The notes under the pieces: model-generated
The model's input: the letters and a program-made list of their open reading frames with translations, nothing else
Databases searched by the model: none
What the model was told of the DNA's origin: nothing
Translations under genes and position numbers: made by a program
Shown: piece after piece, positions 2,230 to 38,767 of the stretch
Layout: every line of letters begins with the position of its first letter
How positions within the stretch are numbered: position 1 is the first letter of the stretch
Assembly (NCBI GenBank): GCA_030168575.1
Contig: CP115555.1
Coordinates: forward strand, 186,001 to 250,000
Direction of reading: 5' to 3'
Source: Methanomassiliicoccales archaeon LGM-RCC1
Lineage (GTDB): Archaea; Thermoplasmatota; Thermoplasmata; Methanomassiliicoccales; Methanomethylophilaceae
Length of the DNA: 64,000 nt

Positions 2230-5200
2230 TCACTGACCTCCTACGGGGAAATCGAGACATGCGTCGATCTCAGCGCAGATCTGCTTGTTCCTGAATCCTC
2301 TCTGCTCCATCGCACCTGCAGGACAGGACGCGACACAGCTTCCGCATCCCTTACAGAGACCGGCGTTGACGAAACTCTTGAAGGCTCCGTTGGGCTGCTC
2401 GACGAGCGAGATGGCGTTGTAATCACAGCATCCTACACAGACACCGCAACCGTCACAGCGGTCGGGGTTGGAGGTAGCTACGATACCCTCGGAAATGTAC
2501 TTGGACTTGGAGATGACGGTCAGCATCCTGGAGGCTGCTCCGGATGCCTGAGCGATACACTCGTCCATGAACTTGGGCCAGTGTGCGGTTCCTGCAACGT
2601 ATACTCCCTCAGTTGCGAAGTCGACGGGCCTCAGTTTCTGATGGGCCTCGAAGTAGTAACCGTCCTTGGAGATGGGGACCTTGACCATCTTGGCGAGCTC
2701 CTCCTTCTCCTCCCTGAGGGGTGCGATACCGGTAGCGAGCACCAGGGTGTCGACGGGGACGTCGAGATCCTCTCCGAGTGTTGCGTCGTATGCGTTGATG
2801 TAGGTTCCGTTGTACTTGGGCAGCTCGTCCTCGACGGGGTACCTAAGGAACCTGACTCCCAGCTGGCATGCCTTCAGGTACATCTCCTCACGGAATCCGT
2901 ATGTCCTGATGTCCTTGTGGATGATGGTGACATTCGCTGTGGGGTCCTTCAACTTGATCTTGATCGCGTTGCAGAGCATGGAAGCGCAGCAGACACGTGA
3001 ACAGTACTTGACCTTGTCGTTCCTGGATCCGATACAGCTGACGAATACAACGTCCTTTCCGTTGAAGTCTCCGGATTCGAGTTTCTTCTCGAGTGCGATC
3101 TGGGTTGTGACCTTCTCATCGTTTCCGAATCCGTACTCTGTGGGCTGGTACTGGGCAGCTCCGACGGCGAAGAGGACTCCTCCGACGGGGTACTTGGTAC
3201 CGTCGCTGAGCTGGAGCTCAAAGTTACCCTTGAATCCGGGGATGTCCTTAACGGTAACACCGGTGTGGACTGTGATGAGCTTCTCGTTCTGCACTTTCTT
3301 GATTGTCTCTGCGAGGTAATCCTTAACGGAAACTCCATCCTCCTTGAAGTTGAAGTTGCGTGCGAATCCTCCGAGTTCCTTCTCCCTCTCGACGAGGTGG
3401 ACAGGGAATCCCTGTGCGGCGATGTCGAGTGCAGCGTTCATTCCGGTGATTCCTCCTCCGATGATGGCTGCTGCCTGGGTGACGGGGATCTCGGATCCCT
3501 CGAGAGGCTCGAGCAGGCATGCCTTTGCGATGGCCATCCTCAGAAGGTCCTTTGCCTTTGCGGTTGCCTCGTCGTGGGCGTGCATGTGGATCCACGAGCA
3601 CTGGTCACGGATGTTGGCCATGTTGAACAGGTACTTGTTCAGTCCTCCGTTCCTGCATGCCTCCCTGAAGAGGGGCTCGTGTGTCCTGGGGGTACAGGAT
3701 GCGACGACGACTCTGTTGAGGTCGTGCTCCTTGATTGCTGTGGAAATCGCATCCAGACAGTCCTGTGCACATGCATACTGTGACTCGCTGGAGATGACGA
3801 CTCCGGGAAGTGTCTTCGCGTACTCTGTGACGGCGGGGACATCAACGACTGATCCGATGTTGATACCGCAGTGGCAGACCCATACTCCGACCCTGGGCTC
3901 GATACCGATGACTTCCTTCTCCTCGGGGTAGACTTTGGGAGCGCAGGGCTCGAAGTTCTTGCCGACGATCCATGCTCCGGCCTTTGCGGAGGATCCGCAT
4001 GCCTCGGCGACAGATGTGGGGATGTCCTTGGGTGCCGCGAAGGCTCCGGTTACGAAGATACCGGGCCTGGTTGTCTCGAGGGGGTGGAAGACCGTGGTCT
4101 TACAGAATCCGTACTCGTTGAGCTCGATTCCAAGTGTCTGGGCGAACTCCTCGGCTCCCTCGGGGGGTGTGAGACCGATTGAGAGGACTGCCATGTCGAA
4201 CTCCTCTGTTACACCATCGTTGTTGTCGTCGGTGTAGCTGATGAGCAGCTTCTTTGTCTCGGGGTCCTCCTCGATGTTGGAGACACGTGCACCGCGGTGC
4301 ATGTTGATTCCGTACTCCTTCTGGCCTCTCTCGATGTAGGCCTCGAACTCCTTTCCGTAGGACCTGATGTCCATGAAGAAGATGTCCTCCTGGAGATCTC
4401 CGTGCTCCTTTGTGATCATTGCCTGCTTTGTCGCGTACATACAGCAGACGGAAGAACAGTACTTCTTCCATCCCTTCTTCTGGGACCTGGATCCGCAGCA
4501 CTGGATGTAGGCGATCTTCTTGGGTGCCTCTCCGTTGGAGGGGCAGACGATGTGACCCCTGTGAGGTCCGGATGCGCACATGATCCTCTCGTACTCGATG
4601 GCGGTGACGACGTTTGCGAACCTGCCGTATCCGTACTCGCTGGCGATGTGTGCGTCCCATACCTTGAATCCGATCGCAGAAATGATGGATCCGACTTCAA
4701 GTGTGATGAGCTCATCCTTGTCATCGTAGTGGATTGCGCCCTTTCCACAAGCCTTGGCGCAGTTTCCACATTTGTCTTTGTTGATCTTCATGCAAACGCT
4801 GGCGTCGATAACTGCAACCCTGGGCACAGCCTGTGCGTGGGGGATGTAGATTGCCTTCCTTGTTGTGAGCCCGAACTCGTACTTGTCGGGGATGTTCTTA
4901 ACAGGACACTTTGCAAGACAGTCTCCACAGCCGGTACACTCGTTGGGGTTGACGTACCTGGCCTTCTTGAGGACAGTCACCTTGAAATCTCCTGCCTTAC
5001 CCTCGACCTTCTGAACCTCGTGGTAGGTCAGAACGTCAATGTTGGGATGTCCGTTACAATCCGCCATTTTAGGCGAGAGGATACATGCGGAACAATCATT
5101 CGTAGGGAATGTCTTGTCGAGACGGCACATGATTCCACCGATTGTGGGGTCTTTCTCCACAAGGTAGACATGAATGTCCCTGTCTGCAAGATCAAGCGAT

Positions 5201-28483: not shown

Positions 28484-28595
28484 CCCCACTTAGCTCAGAC
28501 TGGCTAGAGCGGCTGACTGTAGAGTGTTTTCGGTAAAACCCGATACAGCCGCTGAAATCAGCAGGTCCCCTGTTCAAATCAGGGAGTGGGGACCA
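28484..28595 (+). tRNA. tRNA-Tyr(GTA) with a 34-nt intron and encoded CCA
   Basis: Acceptor stem CCCCACT (28484-28490) pairs with AGTGGGG (28585-28591); C1-G72 is the archaeal tRNA-Tyr identity pair. D arm GCTC...GAGC, anticodon stem GCTGA/TCAGC, anticodon GTA at 28519-28521, T arm CCCTG-TTCAAAT-CAGGG. The intron occupies about 28523-28556 at the canonical 37/38 site. Discriminator A28592 and CCA 28593-28595 are encoded. Its last bases double as the left attachment repeat of the integrated element. Confidence 0.93.
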
Positions 28596-28617
28596 TCCTT
28601 ATCCAGCATCCCCGGAA
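28577..28617 (+). repeat. Left attachment repeat (attL) in the tRNA-Tyr 3' end
   Basis: The first 20 bases AATCAGGGAGTGGGGACCAT are identical to 38727-38746. Identity resumes after three mismatches (TATCCAGCATC), then two mismatches and CGGAA: 36 of 41 positions. It covers the T-stem/acceptor 3' half, CCA and flanking bases, so integration leaves the tRNA intact. Confidence 0.88.
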
Positions 28618-28701: not shown

Positions 28702-29751
28702 GTGTCGGTTTTTGACACGATGGACCGCGGGGAGCTGCAGAAGAAAGTGCTCTCCGGAGAGATCGATGCAGACTGCCTGTTGAAGGATCTCATCGAATGG
28801 GTGACCCTTGTCTACTACAACCTTTTTGCCAACCTCGATACGGGAGAGCACCGTGCCTGCCCTGTATCGAGGAGAGGCAATGCCGCGTATGCTTTACGTC
28901 AGTCTTTCAAGAAATCTATGTTAGCTAAACTGATCAAGAAATCTACCATCTCTGAACAAACCTCTTCCGGCATCTTCTCACATCTTCTCTTCATGACCCT
29001 GACCATCGACCATAATGTCATGTCCCGTGATGAGGCTAACAGGTTCATCACTGCCAAAGGCAAGGGCATCAGCAGGTTCTTTGCACGTCTGGAGAAGGCC
29101 TTGGACGACGGTTACTCGAAGGTGATTGTCAAAGAGTCCACTACATCCGGCTATCCGGCTGTGCATATCATCCTCCACTTGGACAGGCCTCTAAAGATAA
29201 AATGGCACGAGAAGAGCCATTCCTATCGTCCAGATCCGTCGGATCCGTACACACGTTCCATCCTTTCCAAACTAAAGAATCTGGATGATTGGAACTCTAA
29301 GAGCCCCATCTGGGGTGTCGGTTTCGTGGACATCTACGGTTTCACAAATGACCGTCTCCAGATGAAGAGCTACTCCAACCCGATAAACTACATCGCCAAA
29401 TACATCTCTAAGTCGCTTGATCTTCAGGACATCCCCGACCTTGATAAGTACGAGAGGGTGTCGGAGCTGCCGGAGAAATACCGCACGAAGATCTGGACGG
29501 TCCTGAACAACCTCATTTGGAACTCCCAGACTTGGGTCATCTCCAAGTCGTTCAGAGAGGACCTCAAGAAGATAAAGGAGAAGATCGAGAAACTGAAATC
29601 CCGCTGGATGTACGTCGATACGGTCTCTGTCGACAATCCAAGGCTCTACACATGGATGGATTGGGCCCTCGATAATCTCCCCCCAGACATTCAATTGGCA
29701 TTGCGTATCAGACCTGATATCGTGCCGTCCAAAAAGCTCGTGATAATGTGA
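28702..29751 (+). CDS. Probable rolling-circle replication initiator (Rep, HUH-like)
   Basis: The 349-aa protein shows three segments in the order of rolling-circle Rep motifs: LLFMTLTID near residue 95 (motif I, FxTLT), AVHIILHLDRPL near 155 (motif II position, but spaced H-x3-H rather than H-x-H), and NPINYIAKYISKS near 230 (motif III YxxKYxxK with candidate nucleophile tyrosines). Start is GTG 28702 with the Shine-Dalgarno-like GGAGGGG. Next to attL and upstream of a hairpin-rich block that could be its origin. The family match is inferred from motifs only, and the atypical motif II leaves room for doubt. Confidence 0.68.
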   Translation: MSVFDTMDRGELQKKVLSGEIDADCLLKDLIEWVTLVYYNLFANLDTGEHRACPVSRRGNAAYALRQSFKKSMLAKLIKKSTISEQTSSGIFSHLLFMTLTIDHNVMSRDEANRFITAKGKGISRFFARLEKALDDGYSKVIVKESTTSGYPAVHIILHLDRPLKIKWHEKSHSYRPDPSDPYTRSILSKLKNLDDWNSKSPIWGVGFVDIYGFTNDRLQMKSYSNPINYIAKYISKSLDLQDIPDLDKYERVSELPEKYRTKIWTVLNNLIWNSQTWVISKSFREDLKKIKEKIEKLKSRWMYVDTVSVDNPRLYTWMDWALDNLPPDIQLALRIRPDIVPSKKLVIM

Positions 29752-29756
29752 TACCC

Positions 29757-30224
29757 ATGCGTTACAAGATAAAATCTCAGACATTGATCTCCAATGTCCT
29801 CAGCCACCTCTATCAGGCGATCCTGTTCATCTATTCAGATTTCAAATGCGGACTCCTGTACTCCATTCTGGTAATTGGTGAGAAACTGTACATTTTCGGT
29901 TACAGCCATTACAATGCTTATAGGAACAGAATCGAGGATATCAGAGAACATACGTACTACATGAAGGACGGATATGGCAGAAGATACAAGATCTTCCGTC
30001 ACCCCAGCTCCTTTTTCGATCCGATCAATTACCGCCCTAGTCTGCCCTTCCGTCACCGCAAACGATCGGACCTCAGACACACCATACTTCTATCCCAATC
30101 AATACGGGCGGGCCACGCGGCGGCGAAGCCCCGTCGCCCCTTGGGGCAGGGGCGACGACGTGTGGACGGCACGTATGGCGGCGGGCTCACGCGAAGCGTG
30201 GCCGAAGGCGGCCCGCCGCGTTGA
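29757..30224 (+). CDS. Hypothetical protein downstream of Rep (3' end runs into hairpin block)
   Basis: I do not recognise this protein. It starts six bases after the Rep stop. The first about 115 residues look plausible: one hydrophobic segment near residues 20-45 (including GLLYSILVIGEKLYIFGY), then a basic tyrosine-rich part. The last about 40 residues are Arg/Gly/Pro-rich and are simply the translation of the GC-rich inverted repeats from 30108 on, so the true gene may be shorter, or the frame may be only fortuitously open. Confidence 0.4.
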   Translation: MRYKIKSQTLISNVLSHLYQAILFIYSDFKCGLLYSILVIGEKLYIFGYSHYNAYRNRIEDIREHTYYMKDGYGRRYKIFRHPSSFFDPINYRPSLPFRHRKRSDLRHTILLSQSIRAGHAAAKPRRPLGQGRRRVDGTYGGGLTRSVAEGGPPR

Positions 30225-30357
30225 GCCCCGGCCCCGAAGCTTCGCCGTAGGGGACGTGGGCGAAACCTCGACATTCGCGTTGCCGAGCGCAGCGAAGGCA
30301 ACGGGAATGGAGAGCATACGACCCGGACGAGCGAAGCTCGGACGGGGAAGTATGCAT
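30108..30357 (+). other. GC-rich block of mini-hairpins, candidate replication origin or structured RNA
   Basis: About 250 very GC-rich bases inside AT-rich DNA, almost wholly foldable. Seen: CGTCGCCCC/GGGGCGACG (30132-30140/30149-30157); GCGGCGGGC/GCCCGCCGC (30178-30186/30211-30219) enclosing two side hairpins CACGC-GAA-GCGTG (30188-30200) and GCC-GAA-GGC (30201-30209); CGTTGCC/GGCAACG (30278-30284/30297-30303); GCATAC/GTATGC (30314-30319/30350-30355) enclosing CGAGC-GAA-GCTCG (30328-30340). The heptamer GCGAAGC, an exceptionally stable single-stranded DNA hairpin, occurs three times. Placed right after Rep, it suggests a rolling-circle origin or a structured RNA. Confidence 0.65.
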
Positions 30358-30857
30358 AGACTTGATGAAGATAACCAAAGTTGAAACCTGACTCGACCAC
30401 ATTAGCTGTGATGTTTGAGTGATTAAAGGTTATCTAAATCTGTTACACCGGCCGTTATGTACTACCATTTCTTAGACTACTATCAGAACTCGTCACGTTT
30501 ATCCAAGAATGGATGACAGCGGAAATCTTCAAGCTTATTTCTGTAAGGGTATAGGAGACTTAGGCGCGCGAATGTGAAACGATATATTCTTATCTTCTTA
30601 CCAGCCGACAACATGACGAATGCTTGGATCAACAAATCGTTCTTTATGATTGTACAGTACCCTGATCGATCTTCTTTGAACTTTATGGAACAGATGCTAC
30701 AGCCAATGAGTCCCTGGAAAGTTAAATAAGAAAACCAGAGTTTCTACATATGTTTATATAATGATGGAGAATTTAACGGGTATATTCAGACAGGGTTTTA
30801 ATCCAGCCCCATATGGTTGGTAGACCCCAGAAAATGTTTGATGAAAACCTGTATTAG
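30358..30857. other. AT-rich stretch between hairpin block and surface-protein gene
   Basis: No convincing large gene. It holds one possible 38-aa ORF (30613-30729) and, near its end, the promoter of the surface-protein gene: TTTATATA at 30753-30760, about 104 bases before the start. Confidence 0.5.
30613..30729 (+). CDS. Possible 38-aa ORF, unknown
   Basis: ATG to TAA reading MTNAWINKSFFMIVQYPD then a methionine-rich tail. No recognisable family, no clear ribosome-binding site. Listed only because the surrounding 500 bases are otherwise empty; it may be chance or a remnant. Confidence 0.15.
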   Translation: MTNAWINKSFFMIVQYPDRSSLNFMEQMLQPMSPWKVK

Positions 30858-30863
30858 GTGATC

Positions 30864-33800
30864 ATGTTGAAGACAGATTCAAAAAAGGCATTGATGGCAG
30901 TCATTATGGTGTCTATGATGCTGATAGTACCATTGTCCGTGGTCCAGTGGGACCAGACAGATAACGGGGGGGGACTCGATCTTTCAGCCTTCCCTGTAAC
31001 AGATAGAAGCAATAAGAAAATAAGCATTATCGGAGACAGCATCTCCACTTTGAGCACCCATAACAAACAGGGCAACGCGATTTATTATAACGCTAACGGA
31101 CCCAACCAAATCAGCATCAATACGATGTGGTGGGGGCGTCTTATAAAGGATTGGAATAACGGGTCGGAAGGATGGGAAAACAATCTTCTTGTCAATAATT
31201 CATACAGTGGATCCACGGTTGCCAACGGTACTTCTCCGAGGGCCAACCAAACCGTAGTAAATGACCTGTCGAACGGTACATCGAATCCCGATATCGTTCT
31301 GATCTTCGTTGGTACCAACGATTACAATAGAAACAGAAGTGCAACGATCGGAGACGTCGATGGTGATTCGTTGGCAACATACATCGCACAGGATCTTGTA
31401 GGAGGTTCCTCTAGGACATCCTATGACAATATCGCTCAGGCATACACTCTGATGTTGAAGAGAGTCATAGATAAATATCAGACTCCAGGTGATAATCTGG
31501 AGATCATATGTCTCCTGCCTTTTACAGAACCGGCACAGATACAGAAGGGCGTCCACTACGGCAACAATGAAAACGCGACAGGGTTCTACAGGGATACGTT
31601 CAACGATGGGTTGGAAGCCATATGCAAGTACATGAAGACCTATCACGGTACTCACGGCACAGGGAATAACGACATCAAATGTATTGACATGTCCAAATGC
31701 GGTCTGCCGGAGAGATTTACCAAGGCATCGGCCGATTATTTTGTTGATGGAGGAGATTACATGAATTACAGTGTGAGGTCCCTGCATCCGAACAACGCTG
31801 GATTTGAGCTGATGTTCAACTACATCAAACAAGAACTCGAAGGAACGTATTCAAAGCATTCATCCAATGCAATCCCCAAGGGCACAGACTATCTATATAG
31901 GATAGATTTCGACAAAAACGGAAATAACATTACCAACGTTTTGGAGTCCCATCATGTTGGAAGTGCATACACGTCATTGGAAAGCAAATACCGTGTTGCA
32001 AAGGATGGTCCGAATTCCAGTAATTCATCCACTGGAAACAGTAGCTAGAGTATCAATGCTTTTTGGGATTTCGATCCCGATACCGGTCTGGGGCCGTTCA
32101 ATTCGTTTTACGCAGCGATCAACATCAAGGATTCCAACTATGGCAATCCTGACGATTCTAAGGAACTCAGACTGAACGACAAGAAGGGAACAGTGGCATA
32201 TGTGTTGGACCCGTACAACTTGAAGAAGACCCTTAAAGGGATGATGTTTTCCACGGACCTTTACAACGTTATGCTTGTGATTCCGACCGTCTATTGGAAA
32301 TCGGTAGGAGTTGATGGCGAAGGACATGAAGTGAGCCCAGACGGCGCTTTGGCCTCATGTTCGGAATATCGGCTGTATCTTTCGAACAAACAGTCATATA
32401 CTCCAAATGGTGGAGATGAAGTCACGGGCATGCACGCAAACGGCCATACCGATGGATATGGTAACACAGGAAATGTGAAGCCATATATCGCCATAGGGGT
32501 CTATGAAGCATATGCCACATCAGACTCAGAGTTGGTGTCGCAGAGTGGCAAAGTGCCTACTGTCAACAAGACATTGGCAGAATTCAAGACCCTAGCCGGT
32601 AATAACAACACAAATATTGGTAACACAGGATCATACTCACTTTGGGGTTACGACCAATGGCAGTTGTACAAGATGATGGCATTTACCATCATGGGTACCG
32701 AGAACGCCCAAGGAATGATCGGTCGCGGATTGGCCACCGGTTCGTTCAATAGCGGATTCAGATCAGAAACAGGAACAGTGGATACCGCGGGAAGTTATTT
32801 CGGAACATATCTTGTTGAGCCCAGCAGGACCACCGCATCCAAGCTGCTACTGGAGAACACCTGGGGAAGCGTAGCCGAATTCCTTGGGGACGTGAAAGGA
32901 ACATACCATGATTCAAAATATCGTTTAGTGTTTGAAGCAGAAGAGATAACAGCAGAAAAAATCATAGAGAGTTTCAATAACGCGACGAGTGGATGGTATT
33001 CTAAAACATGGCTCAGAGATAATCCCCTCTGGGGTTGCTTGGGTTGGTTCGATACAGGAAATTACACCGGGGCGGATGACCAGATGTCCTTGGATATAAG
33101 TGGTGACAGAATAGCTATATCCTCACCTCAAACCGATAAATCAGTCCGTGTCGGAGGAGCACATAACACCACGGGTAACCGTGCCGGACTCAGCACCCTA
33201 TGGATGGATTCGGTCATATCAGAAGCGGATTCGATTACCGGCTCGCGCATCATGTATCTGATGGATGCGGCAGCCGTTGAGGTGAAGGTCAGTGTTTCAA
33301 CAACACATGTGGAAACCGCTAGTTTGGCAGTTACCAAGAAAGTTGGTTCGGACACACCGACTAATGTGGCGGATCCGATCTATGTAGGAAATGATGCAAC
33401 TCTTGCGATGGTTGATAACAATATGACCATCACTGATGGCGATACCGTATACACATACACAGTAACCCCTGCCTCCGGAAAGTCGTTCAATTACTTCATG
33501 GACGAACTCAATGACAGAATCCAGGTTAGCGGAAAGGTCAGGTCGATGGTCCTGAAAGCCGTTTGCGGTACACCTGAAGTCGTTTCCGTCATACAGGCCG
33601 CCGGAGGAACCTTGACGATACATTATAGAAGCGATGCGACCGTGACTCCGGGAACTTCCGAGTATTCTGTCCAGGACAATGTGCTTACGATATCGACTGG
33701 TAATAACATCAATCTGACGGTCACGGCCACACCTAACAACGGCGTCCATTTCGGTATGTTCCTGGTGGGGCCTTCGAATGCAATGGTTCCTCAGACAAAT

Positions 33801-36143
33801 ACAGATTCGGTGGCTATCACGGACGCTTATACTAAGGATAACCCCTTGACGATAACCGCGGCCTTCGTTAACTACGTCTACGCTTTCAAAGGCGATGATT
33901 ACACCATCAGCTACGTTTCGAAATCAGGAACACAGACAATCTCCAACGGCAGTGTTACGAACGAGTCACCGATCCCGGTCGTCTATCAGACCGGTACCGT
34001 CGAATTGACGATAACAGCTGAAGACAATCATCTAATCAATAAGGTCTATGCCGGGATAACAGAATTGACCGAATCCGCTAACAAATACACAGTAGGTCCA
34101 TTGACTTCCGACACTTACGTTACGGTCCTGACCGATAATGACAATACTGTAACTTTCACAAGAGACAGTGTGAAGATCGAAACCGAGCATGAGGCTAGCA
34201 ATCTCTATCTGCCGACCGAAGTGGTCGTCACTCCTATCGATAACCTTACAGACGGAGTCCTTGAGAGTATCAAGAACAGGGCTTCACTGAGCGTTGCGAT
34301 CCTTGGAAAGTCGGACGTCCGCTTGAACGTCCCCACGGTGCAAACAGTCCCCATTCCGGTGGCGGCATTGACATTATTCAAGGGATCTAACGGAGACCTG
34401 TATATCGATTCCCTCAATGCGAACCTGGTATTCACCAGAGCTGCACTATCGGATATCGGAGAAGCTATCGAAGCGGGAGTGGGCGATAATTCGATCATGA
34501 TCGATCAAAATTCGGCGCTGTCGGTATCTGCGATTTCGACCAGTGCGCCTGAGGCATATTCTTCTTTGATACCTCATAGCCAAGTCTTCAATATCGATGT
34601 GGCGGTGGTCACGGATACCGTCACCTATCACATCACATCAGAACTCGGATCGCCTATGACGATAGAGCTGGACCCGACAGCCGGTTATAGCAAATATTCC
34701 ATACGTTACCTGGACGGAACAGGGGGCATGGAGAGGCTGCATTCCAGCAACTGTACCTTCGATGCAACCCTCTTCGGCCTGTATGCGATCGTTGAGGAAT
34801 ATACCGTGCGTTTCGATACGGCCGGTCTGGTTCTCAAAGATAGCGTCAACGTGGCGAGAGATTCTACTCTGGATCCCGGCTCGCTGATGGCTGCCGGCTA
34901 CACATTCGCCGGATGGTATAAGGATCCGACATTCGACACTCCCTGGAGCGAGCAGAGTATCGTGTCCGTGGACAATATGACGCTATATGCCAAGTGGAAC
35001 GTCTGGACCCTGACCGTTACGTTCGAACCGGGTACAGGATCAGGTACCATGGAACAACAGACAATCAGGTACAGCGATGGAAGCAGGACCTTGAATCCCA
35101 ATGCTTTCACGAAAACCGGTTACGTGTTCGACCATTGGACTTCCGATACCGAAGAGACGTACGATGACAGGGCCGACATGTCGGAACTGATCCTTGCGGT
35201 CGATTCAGAGATCACTCTCGCAGCCGAATGGAGAAAAGCCCCCGTGCCGCCGTCACCCGTCAACCCCAATATCTACGAGGCGGTCAGCGACGACGGGGAA
35301 TTCAGCGACAAAGAGGTGTCCTCCATCATCTCGCAGATGAAGAACATCGCATCCTATAGCAAGACGCCGATTCTGAACGTCACCGCAGAAGGGCGGATCC
35401 ATCTGACATCGGAGCTGTTCGACGCCATGATCAATTACGGTGCGAAGTTGGTGTTCAAGGACAAGAATGTGACCATAGACGTTCCCTCTAAGACTCTGGC
35501 CGGTATAGGCAAAGGAAAGGATGCAATCCTCATGGTGGACACCAAGGACATATCGGAGGTCTACGTCCTGAAGGACAGGGACGGTGAGGTCTACGACATA
35601 ACCCTGGTGGTCAACGGTCAGACCTACAAGGAACTATTCGCCGAGCCTATAGACATCTCCATCATATGTGACGACCTGAAGGATGTCGACAAGGATCTCA
35701 CGGAGCTGTTCTACGTCAATGGTTCCGTACTGGAGAAGGTGGACATTACCAAATTCGGCGATATGGTCTGGTTCTCGGCTCCGCATCTGAGCCGTTACGC
35801 CCTCGTGTACGATAGAGGCGCCACAGTGTCTGTGAACATAAGCGGCGGAACGGTATCCGACCCCGGGGACGGATGGAAGTACAGCGGCGGATACTACTCG
35901 AAGAAGTTCGCGGTCGGCTCCACCGTGACGGAGATACTGGACGACCTGGGATCAATAAGCAAATCCTGGTCCGTCAGGATGGGTCAAAGCTCCACATCCG
36001 ACGTGTTGGAAGAGGGCGGGATGACCATCGTAGTGAAGTGGGTGTCCCTCGCGGACATCCTCCTCGTGATCTTTGTGGTCATCGTCGCGATCCTCCTGCT
36101 CTTCATAACCTTCTACCGGAAGGGAACCGGTCGGAGGAGCTGA
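30864..36143 (+). CDS. Giant secreted surface protein: SGNH hydrolase + in-frame amber + lectin-like and InlB-type repeats + C-terminal anchor
   Basis: Read through one TAG (codon 395), the frame encodes 1759 residues. Residues 7-28 are a signal/anchor segment. Residues 50-325 are an SGNH/GDSL esterase: GDS with S59, GTND at 150-153, H308 in SLHPN. After the amber, residues about 440-790 resemble an FGE/C-type-lectin fold (ENTWGSVAEFLGD; RVGGAHNTTGNRAGLS; GSRIMYL). Beta-rich repeats follow, then two InlB/Flg_new-type repeats at about 1312-1459 (AGYTFAGWYKDPTF, LYAKWNVW). A membrane helix lies at about 1728-1751 with a KGTGRRS tail. Without readthrough only the SGNH part (394 aa, unanchored) is made. 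Adhesin-like proteins of gut methanogens share such repeats. Start ATG 30864; GTG 30858 is possible. Confidence 0.8.
32046..32048 (+). other. In-frame TAG, candidate pyrrolysine codon
   Basis: The only TAG ending a long frame in the window. It falls in a serine/asparagine linker (STGNSS before, SINAFWDFDPDTG after). The frame then stays open without another stop to 36143, with no start codon before the GTG at 32193, while clearly protein-like sequence begins immediately after the TAG. Confidence 0.65.
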
Positions 36144-36274: not shown

Positions 36275-36358
36275 TTTAAATACGACTGTGCCGATAAATC
36301 ATTATCCCGATAAGACCCATGAGTCGGCTGCTGGAGTGTGGCCATTACGGCTCATGGG
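36275..36358 (+). ncRNA. Candidate antisense hairpin RNA at the 3' end of DUF3800 (copy 1)
   Basis: TATA box TTTAAATA at 36275-36282. A 43-nt hairpin at 36316-36358: outer stem CCCATGAG/CTCATGGG, internal loop TC/ATTACGG, inner stem GGCTGC/GTGGCC with two G-U wobbles, loop TGGAGT. The transcript would start near 36305 and be antisense to the last codons and stop of the DUF3800 gene. Spacing and architecture are identical in the copy at 38895-38979. Confidence 0.5.
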
Positions 36359-36940
36359 CGAAGGATACCTTCTTCGCTATCAGCTCGTAATAACTGTCCT
36401 CGTTCGATTCGTACTTAGAACGGATGGAACCTGCGACGAAATCCGCCAGCTGGACACATTTATTGTCATGTGACTGGACTTTCTTTACGGCCTTTATATT
36501 GCGTCCTTCGAGTCCCTGTTTCGCAATTTCGGACAGATCCCCTATTGATACGCCAAGGTTCTGGTCGAAATGGAATATCACATCCCTGGTCTCAAGCGCA
36601 TCATTGACCAGAGGCATCAACAGTCTGACAGCTTCTTTGTATAGTCTCTTCCCACGGACATCCATGTAGCCATCGGAATCCTTATCGATGCATACATAGA
36701 CTATGTTCAACGGCAGCCGACAAGCGATTCCAGAATCTCTTCCTTTTCATCCATGAATGAATTATAGAATTTGATCTCATGACCGGGCTTGAACGACTTC
36801 CTCCTGTTCTTGACCAAATCAATGGTCTTGAAGGCTGGCTTCAGGTCCCTGACACGTCTTGATACGATTGCGGCCATTATGAAGAATCTATCCTCCGAGC
36901 CCAGATTGCCGGATTCGTCTATGGCCACTATCGAAGTCAT
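36345..36940 (-). pseudogene. DUF3800-family gene split by a frameshift
   Basis: The N-terminal part (36940-36707, SIVAIDESGNLGSEDRFF with the DESGN motif) and C-terminal part (36710-36345, NIVYVCIDKDSDGY onward) are in different frames. Together they match the intact 200-aa DUF3800 protein at 38966-39568 end to end. The shift is near 36710, where the upstream frame ends LVGCR-TGA and the next opens with TTG overlapping the stop. DUF3800 proteins have an RNase-H-like fold and are frequent in mobile and defence loci; activity is unknown. A coupled two-piece protein or programmed shift is possible, but I see no clear slippery site. Confidence 0.72.
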
Positions 36941-37742: not shown

Positions 37743-38717
37743 ATGACCACCAGGATCTCGACTCCCGAAAGATGTATCGAGAAGTACATCAGGGAGAACA
37801 AGAAGAGCTCCAAGACGGAAACGTACGACCAGTACAGGACCGTCCTGACCAAGATGGCTAGGGACCTCGAAGCAGCCGGTTTCGACCCTCTGCCATACTA
37901 CGTAACGGAAAAGGCCGTCAGATACCTTCTGGATGAAATCTGGAAGGATCTCGAGGTCTCGACCAGGAAGTGGCATACACACATTTTCTCAAGGTATCTC
38001 CGCTTCTTCGGAAACAATGTGATCGTCAGCATGGATATTCGCTGGCCCCAAGACATGCGCCCCAACGTGGATTGGCTTACCGATCCTGAGCAGCAGAAGC
38101 TTCTGAACGCACCCAAGACCATCCTCGAAGAGGCTGTGATACACTTCGAGCTCAACCTCGGACTCCGTATCGCGGAGGTCTGCAATCTCAAGCTCGACTG
38201 CATCAACTACAGGATGAGGACGGTTGAGGTCCTCGGAAAGGGTCACGGAGAGGGCAAATGGAGATCCGTTCCTTTCAGTGAGGACACGGAGGACGTCCTG
38301 AGAAGATGGATGGAAGAGCGTCAGAGGCTCGTGGACCGCGTGAGGGCATTCAACCCCTTATGGCAGGATCCAGGCAACGTTTTCATCTGGTGCCACTACA
38401 AGTACAAACCCCAGGCCGGAGCCTACTCCGATAGGGGTCACAGCCTCGACCGCGGAGTTATACACATCGTGCGCGACCGCCTCGGAGTGGAGTTCACCAA
38501 CCACACCCTCAGGAGGACATTCGGCCGCACCATGTACCATGCCGGAGCGCCTATAGAATCGATCTCAAAGATACTCGGTCACGAGGACATCGTTACCACC
38601 CTGAAGTACCTCGGGATCAACCTCGACGACATGCAGGCCGCCATGGATCTGCACGGCGATTATCAGAAGAAGATTCGTATGGGAATATTCCAGAAAGGGG
38701 GTGTCCAGCGTGTTTAA
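37743..38717 (+). CDS. Tyrosine recombinase (integrase) of the tRNA-Tyr element
   Basis: Site-specific recombinase of 324 aa. N-terminal SAM-like core-binding domain about residues 5-105. The catalytic domain has R142 (LGLRIAEVCNLK), a lysine in the beta-hairpin near 166-172, H254 and R257 (NHTLRRTFG), H280 (LGHEDIVTT) and nucleophile Y289 (LKYLGIN), a complete set. It ends nine bases before attR and points toward it, as for elements whose attP adjoins int. Controlled probably by the divergent RHH protein. Confidence 0.93.
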   Translation: MTTRISTPERCIEKYIRENKKSSKTETYDQYRTVLTKMARDLEAAGFDPLPYYVTEKAVRYLLDEIWKDLEVSTRKWHTHIFSRYLRFFGNNVIVSMDIRWPQDMRPNVDWLTDPEQQKLLNAPKTILEEAVIHFELNLGLRIAEVCNLKLDCINYRMRTVEVLGKGHGEGKWRSVPFSEDTEDVLRRWMEERQRLVDRVRAFNPLWQDPGNVFIWCHYKYKPQAGAYSDRGHSLDRGVIHIVRDRLGVEFTNHTLRRTFGRTMYHAGAPIESISKILGHEDIVTTLKYLGINLDDMQAAMDLHGDYQKKIRMGIFQKGGVQRV

Positions 38718-38726
38718 TCCGTTCCC

Positions 38727-38767
38727 AATCAGGGAGTGGGGACCATTTCTATCCAGCATCTTCGGAA
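38727..38767 (+). repeat. Right attachment repeat (attR)
   Basis: Perfect 20-bp copy of the tRNA-Tyr 3' end (AATCAGGGAGTGGGGACCAT) followed by 16 further matching bases out of 21. It is not part of a second tRNA: no acceptor, D or anticodon arm precedes it. Confidence 0.88.

Follow-up and report, generated by a model that had tools for sequence, protein, structure and literature searches.

This analysis points to a GC-rich array of DNA hairpins and the short conserved tail behind it as the replication origin of an integrative rolling-circle element of ~10 kb, a reading to which we assign a probability of roughly 70%. The array lies in a 64-kb stretch of DNA, hereafter the window, from an archaeal genome of 1.66 Mb on one contig. 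Within it, the hairpin next to the predicted nick site and the tail likely form the double-strand origin, and the additional arms the single-strand origin. The anatomy of the locus, its conservation, its strand polarity, its compensatory changes, its link to a Rep gene and its integration are read directly from the sequences compared below. The initial annotation of this DNA had offered two possibilities, namely that a rolling-circle replicon has its double- or single-strand origin here, or that a structured RNA is read from the element. The first is well supported by a nick-like tail, a two-tyrosine Rep upstream at 33 of 35 loci, strand-specific GNA loops, compensatory changes, and att repeats with an empty site; the second is weaker, with no Rfam match and no enrichment of RNA-type loops. 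The features to which the text refers are the following.

28577-28617, plus strand: attL, a 41-bp direct repeat that spans the 3' end of a tRNA-like gene and extends somewhat past it
28702-29751, plus strand: Rep, rolling-circle initiator of 349 aa with the motif INYIAKYISK (Pfam REP_ORF2-G2P)
29748-30224, plus strand: ORF2, small protein between Rep and the block, its last codons overlapping the block in the window
30108-30357, plus strand: GC-rich multi-hairpin block, proposed single-strand origin and Rep-recognition hairpins
30122-30130, plus strand: GGC-GAA-GCC mini-hairpin
30132-30157, plus strand: long GC hairpin CGTCGCCCC/GGGGCGACG
30177-30219, plus strand: stem that forks into a pair of C(GAA)G side hairpins, showing compensatory changes (helices 4 and 5 of alignment A2)
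30272-30309, plus strand: arm with a 5+7-bp stem, CATTC/CGTTGCC/GA/GC-GCA-GC/GAA/GGCAACG/GAATG, strict core 30278-30303
30314-30355, plus strand: nick-proximal arm, GCATAC/CCCG/GA/CGAGC-GAA-GCTCG/GA/CGGG/GTATGC, strict core 30322-30346
30360-30387, plus strand: conserved tail ACTTG^AT-N4-ATAAC...AGTTGAAAC, proposed double-strand-origin nick site
30858-36143, plus strand: cargo, a GDSL lipase ORF and a List_Bact_rpt ORF in one frame with one TAG between them
37743-38717, plus strand: tyrosine recombinase (integrase; Pfam Phage_integrase, E 2e-22)
38727-38767, plus strand: attR, a near-identical copy of attL

The hairpin block and its integrative element

As the initial annotation had described, the block is GC-rich within AT-richer DNA (71% GC at 30108-30357, against 45% and 38% in the flanks), and three GCGAAGC heptamers, a stem that forks into two GAA-loop side hairpins and further stems were all located on its plus strand. 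The heptamers lie at 30123, 30191 and 30331, with another at 30239 on the minus strand. Counted on both strands, the four heptamers in 250 bp compare with a mean of 0.12 in dinucleotide shuffles, and the six C(GNA)G hairpins with a mean of 0.71; neither count was reached in any of 2000 shuffles. Across the whole window GCGAAGC is not over-represented (11 against 6.5 expected, a count reached in 8 of 100 shuffles). Folded as plus-strand RNA, positions 30100-30365 give -153.7 kcal/mol against -119.3 ± 5.1 in shuffles (z -6.7; 0 of 200 shuffles), and z is -6.4 for the plus strand as DNA and -7.3 for the minus strand as RNA. Two arms in the block follow a strict grammar of stem, G(N)A, 2-6 bp, GNA loop, G(N)A and stem (30272-30309 and 30314-30355); they are the only such arms on either strand of the window, and the second ends 4 nt 5' of ACTTG. 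The limits originally given, 30108-30357, enclose the block itself but stop 2 bases before its most conserved part, the tail. Its placement next to Rep holds in that Rep lies upstream on the same strand, but ORF2 intervenes after the end of Rep at 29751. Upstream of the tail, tblastn matched ORF2 in 8 of the 30 contexts, that of the window itself among them.

The element that carries the block is ~10.15 kb long and is bounded by the att repeats at 28577-28617 and 38727-38767. A same-species genome (G060) holds the corresponding empty site, which is uninterrupted and in which the two flanks overlap by 41 bp. The element contains Rep, ORF2, the hairpin block, surface-protein cargo, small genes and the tyrosine recombinase; no conjugation gene was recognised among the eight of its proteins that were scanned. 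As read from the sequence, the integration site is the 3' end of a tRNA-like gene at 28501-28600, apparently with an intron, where ARAGORN reported no tRNA. Within the cargo, a TAG at 32046-32048 interrupts the GDSL-lipase ORF and the 1316-aa List_Bact_rpt ORF, which together would span 1,761 residues if read through. In the host order TAG is decoded as pyrrolysine, so that the two ORFs may yield one secreted protein. The DUF3800 gene at 36345-36940 on the minus strand is divided between two overlapping ORFs, through a frameshift or a coupled start.

Rep matches Pfam REP_ORF2-G2P with 31.0 bits (cut-off 27.8), and a divergent class of related Reps falls below the cut-off or has no match. The tyrosines of its YxxxY motif, Y230 and Y234, are conserved without exception across an alignment of 11 Reps, the most distant at 28% identity; the initiator of phiX174 carries the same two-tyrosine motif. 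In place of the two-histidine HUH motif, all 11 Reps have GYPAVH or GYPAPH, with only the second histidine present and alanine instead of the first. The AlphaFold model is of middling quality (mean pLDDT 70.8) and poorest around the tyrosines. Its fold matches include SIRV1 ORF119, geminivirus-type Rep, AAV Rep and pMV158 RepB (low Z, 5.1-6.5), among unrelated ferredoxin-like folds, as well as Helitron and other HUH enzymes, and its best 50 matches in a viral library comprise four named Microvirus initiators, one putative phage replication protein and otherwise nameless proteins. Sequence searches with Rep gave no relative in viral contigs, either as a single protein or as an alignment, no convincing relative in the PDB, and in PHROGs only a weak match to "DNA replication initiation" (E 0.041). 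Its named relatives come from Methanomethylophilaceae, Methanomassiliicoccaceae and Thermoplasmata assemblies. On three contigs (L022, L024 and L031), close and divergent Rep genes lie ~6-7 kb apart, as if elements stacked in tandem at one integration region.

The conserved tail and its occurrence in related methanogens

The tail, which reads ACTTGATGAAGATAACCAAAGTTGAAAC in the window, directly follows the block. It recurs behind the Rep genes of relatives, where similarity ends right after it, and the divergent Reps (~28% identity to that of the window) have their own version, ACTTGATAGAGATAACCTGAGTTAAAA. Aligned on the viral-strand origin annotated at 4306 in the phiX174 record, the tail and the phage sequence share ACTTG^AT, four free bases and ATAAC; in this register, the nick is predicted between 30364 and 30365 on the plus strand. 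The gapped pattern ACTTGAT-N4-ATAAC occurs once in the window, against 0.01 expected. Plain identity to the phiX174 site at 12 of 16 positions is not significant, as it is found four times in the window, and the weight of the comparison therefore lies on register, conservation and position. The core of the tail is also that of the archaeal Rep74/75 origin TATCTTG/ATA (PMC9569500) and of pC194-type CTTGATA (PMC10378824), as given in the available parts of these sources. The exact core is present a single time in the genome that contains the window and likewise a single time in each element of the relatives, which led us to reject a CRISPR repeat as the identity of the tail, whose end is GTTGAAAC. 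Matches to the core in 16 viral contigs were judged to be chance, and ACTTG was rightly placed in none of the contexts displayed.

Among 147 genomes of the order, 18 contain a match to a loose tail pattern and none a match to the reversed pattern. Together with two variant tails, this pattern defined 30 distinct loci, on which all block statistics are based. A covariance-model search, proposed in the initial annotation as a check of the fold, was carried out with a model built from seven loci and yielded five more, which enter the count of 35 and stand apart from the statistics on 30 blocks. Rep lies upstream on the same strand as the tail at 29 of the 30 pattern-found loci and at 33 of 35 when the covariance-model loci are included. 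One exception (G013:C17) is 476 nt from a contig end. The other (G060:C7:61593; positions 3594-3713 of L133, which is G060:C7:58000-63500) carries both block and tail in complete form, but the 3.6 kb before them contain no Rep; it shares its region with a Rep-bearing element (L148) and is possibly a satellite that uses the Rep of its neighbour in trans. These counts leave out G011, where the Rep contig (L025) ends before any block, and a tail-like site behind the Rep of G027:C7:325033, by eye one base off the pattern.

The Rep match ends ~220 to 1,130 nt before the tail, and the block is thus more than the mere end of a rep gene. Block lengths range from ~100 to 290 nt and more, and are approximate because a GC threshold determined where each block was taken to start. 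At the loci displayed, and as read by eye, the last arm ends ~1-8 nt 5' of ACTTG. All loci are related, and the counts are not independent.

The arm grammar extends to most of these loci. On the nick strand, 23 of the 30 blocks contain 29 strict arms, against 0.01 in shuffles, and the remaining seven have none; the other strand of the 30 blocks has no strict arm at all. The grammar was framed after the sequences had been seen, and the shuffle control measures its rarity and is no independent test.

For three sets of loci grouped by likeness, comprising 8 (A2), 8 (A3) and 7 (A4) of the 30, with the other seven left out, alignments could be compared with the predicted helices. The initial annotation had looked to compensatory changes in relatives as a check, and the stems are indeed kept. 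In A2, which includes the window, 98.2% of 495 cells are paired, and both sides have changed at nine pairs in 13 cells, compared with 3.6 cells in shuffles (0 of 500). A3 is paired at 93.3%, with both-side changes at five pairs in five cells (0 of 500 shuffles), while the near-identical sequences of A4 contain one such pair and are little informative. Sliding the partners against each other removed most of the compensatory signal in A2 and A3. The aligned loci are related, and these changes are not independent events. The nick-proximal arm (helix 10 of A2) is invariant at 8 of 8 pairs, so that its support comes from comparison between classes and not from covariation within one.

The smallest form is found in a related genus (L103), where Rep is 62% identical to that of the window and the tail is kept. 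Its block is one AT-rich hairpin, AAAACC-GA-GT-GGA-AC-GA-GGTTTT, placed 8 nt before ACTTG, and folds no better than shuffles (z -0.5). In this locus, as judged from its sequence, the arm grammar outlasts the GC-rich composition, and we take the single hairpin and the tail as the candidate irreducible origin, to which further arms were added. A second tail-like sequence, ACTTGATATTACTC...AAGTTAAAAC, is located at ~1190 on the minus strand of L103, downstream of the first origin.

A proposed rolling-circle mechanism and its alternatives

In the mechanism that we propose, the element would excise and Rep, a two-tyrosine initiator in the style of phiX174 gene A, would bind the nick-proximal hairpin and cut the plus strand at ACTTG^AT (30364/30365). 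The resulting 3'-OH would prime leading-strand synthesis into the cargo, displacing the old plus strand. A cut at this position would place the block at the extreme 3' end of the displaced strand, where it would be exposed last and be single-stranded only near the end of the round. The C(GNA)G mini-hairpins would then fold there, stay folded and offer Rep the nick site at which it makes the closing cut. In the larger blocks, the additional arms may act as a single-strand origin, at which host primase or RNA polymerase would start the complementary strand. The proximal arm and the tail would thereby serve to cut and rejoin, and the distal arms to restart synthesis. Single-strand origins usually lie upstream of double-strand origins in rolling-circle plasmids, in most cases because they become single-stranded only at the end of the round, according to the accessible parts of the sources (PMC4595007; PMC9569500).

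A serious but unlikely alternative is that the hairpins are a recognition structure for Rep or a relaxase only, similar to oriT or IS200-type sites that lie 5' of the cut and are bound single-stranded, with no single-strand-origin role; Rep may then also mobilise the element. That L103 has one hairpin directly 5' of its nick-like site as the universal minimum fits this reading, as do the range of block lengths, which implies that most arms are dispensable, and the presence of Helitron and other HUH enzymes among the fold matches of Rep. However, it leaves unexplained why many elements keep extra arms that lie at a distance from the nick and show compensatory changes, and the scanned proteins of the element included no recognisable conjugation gene.

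The nature of the loops bears on the question whether the block acts as DNA or RNA. In the 30 blocks, C-closed GNA loops on at least 2 bp number 92 on the nick strand, compared with 17.4 ± 4.4 in shuffles (maximum 30 in 300), and those on at least 4 bp number 26, against 1.4 expected. On the opposite strand, C(GNA)G hairpins are at chance level (7 against 6.8 for at least 2 bp; 1 against 0.5 for at least 4 bp). The middle base of GNA varies freely (C27, A26, T26, G13). GNYA loops are also frequent on the nick strand (17 against 8.0 ± 2.6; 9 on the opposite strand), and GNRA loops are not (5 against 9.2; 3 on the opposite strand). On stems of at least 4 bp, RNA-type tetraloops are not enriched (GNRA 2 against 1.6; UNCG 0 against 0.6). 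L103 entered the loop count with 40 nt and the grammar count with 60 nt. Of the pairs predicted for the nick strand, 3.8% are G-U, a share that is 8.0% for the opposite strand and 8.5% ± 0.6 in shuffles. The fold z is lower on the nick strand in 30 of 30 blocks, with L103 near zero on both strands. A single-strand origin is structured, non-coding and specific to one strand; here, C(GNA)G arms are found on the nick strand only and relatives differ by frame-breaking gaps.

A structured non-coding RNA, transcribed from the plus strand of the element, is an unlikely alternative. The strong plus-strand fold would suit such an RNA, which would also share the polarity of the nick strand and the compensatory changes. 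Against it, no Rfam covariance model matched, the enriched loops are the DNA-type C(GNA)G and GNYA and not GNRA or UNCG, and G-U pairs are depleted relative to shuffles. Moreover, a terminator-like site is absent, inspection by eye revealed no common TATA-like promoter ahead of the shortest blocks, and the block keeps a fixed position relative to the nick sequence.

Similarity between elements is lost abruptly past GTTGAAAC and the cargo changes, a pattern that would also be compatible with an integron attC-type cassette recombination site. This is highly improbable. The attC core is GTTRRRY, which GTTGAAA/GTTAAAA does not fit; divergence begins after C and not within GTT, and the integrase of the window is located next to the att site, at the opposite end. 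That cargo is exchanged at the edge of the origin, which we offer as a guess, would account for the sharp divergence. Finally, an extension of ORF2 or another gene, or an effect of GC composition, can be dismissed: ORF2 (29748-30224) enters the block in the window and most single GC-rich blocks have some stop-free frame, but the A2 relatives differ by frame-breaking gaps rather than sharing the conserved protein that the initial annotation had named as contrary evidence, G013 has a stop just before the block, and L103 retains one hairpin and nothing else.

Relation to known replication origins

The proposed rolling-circle origin resembles that of phiX174 gene A in the register of ACTTG^AT-N4-ATAAC and in a CCCC-GAA-GGGG hairpin near the phage's own origin. 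It differs in the placement of its hairpins, which precede the nick on the 5' side and are not part of the rep gene, in the continuation of the tail as AGTT(G/A)AAAC, and in that the element is integrative and resides in an archaeon. The phage mini-hairpin, at about 131-144 of the extracted segment (L153, 4200-4420), is ~25 nt 3' of the origin nick.

Several archaeal and bacterial systems, as described in the available portions of the cited papers, share part of this layout. The pGT5 (Rep75) and Methanosarcina pC2A (RepA) plasmids have the CTTG/AT nick core and a single-strand origin that precedes the double-strand origin by 100-200 bp; unlike here, their double-strand origin is within the 5' part of rep, and those portions describe no GNA-arm block (PMC9569500). 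The Rep-Arvir origin of pleolipovirus SNJ2, the nearest of those described, likewise belongs to an archaeal integrative element and is a hairpin origin 3' of rep with bipartite bind and nick elements. In contrast, its initiator is related to Rep_trans and contains a MarR-like domain, and its nick is proposed in the hairpin loop; in the same portion, the authors report no equally conserved element outside Halobacteria (PMC13107129). Pfam places the Rep of the window in REP_ORF2-G2P, away from the family of Rep-Arvir. The ICEBs1/pBAA1-type single-strand origin is similar in being ~200 bp long, intergenic, composed of three stem-loops and located beside the initiator gene, but sso1 of ICEBs1 lies downstream of its double-strand origin, and the likeness noted is one of layout (PMC4595007). 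A literature search, to which many subscription papers were out of reach, found no mobile-element replication origin described for Methanomethylophilaceae.

Ultra-stable DNA mini-hairpins are formed where two or more G-C pairs are capped by a GNA or GNNA loop, and the arms described here share the C-GNA-G and GNNA loops of d(GCGAAGC); there, in the part of the source available, the hairpin is a component of a designed aptamer and serves as a biophysical model, and here it occurs in conserved natural arrays (PMC4686876). Tentatively, and at somewhat less than even odds, we suggest that the blocks represent a conserved natural DNA fold. They would constitute a family of single-stranded DNA origins whose arms consist of a stem, a GA or GNA internal loop, 2-6 bp, a GNA or GNNA loop, a GA or GNA internal loop and a stem. 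Selection would have favoured the stability that GNA mini-hairpins have specifically in DNA, as opposed to RNA loops, and on the displaced strand these origins would form a landing pad that resists SSB. Mini-hairpins of this kind are unusually stable in DNA, and a clear natural job for them has so far been missing; if this suggestion is true, d(GCGAAGC)-type mini-hairpins would have one.

The 35 loci provide a ready alignment, a predicted nick at base resolution and a strand-specific structural code that is testable with oligonucleotides. If the origin reading is right, it would tie an archaeal integrative element to phiX174-type initiation, provide an origin with which vectors could be built for one methanogen order, and represent a natural, evolving secondary structure of DNA, not RNA, with compensatory changes.
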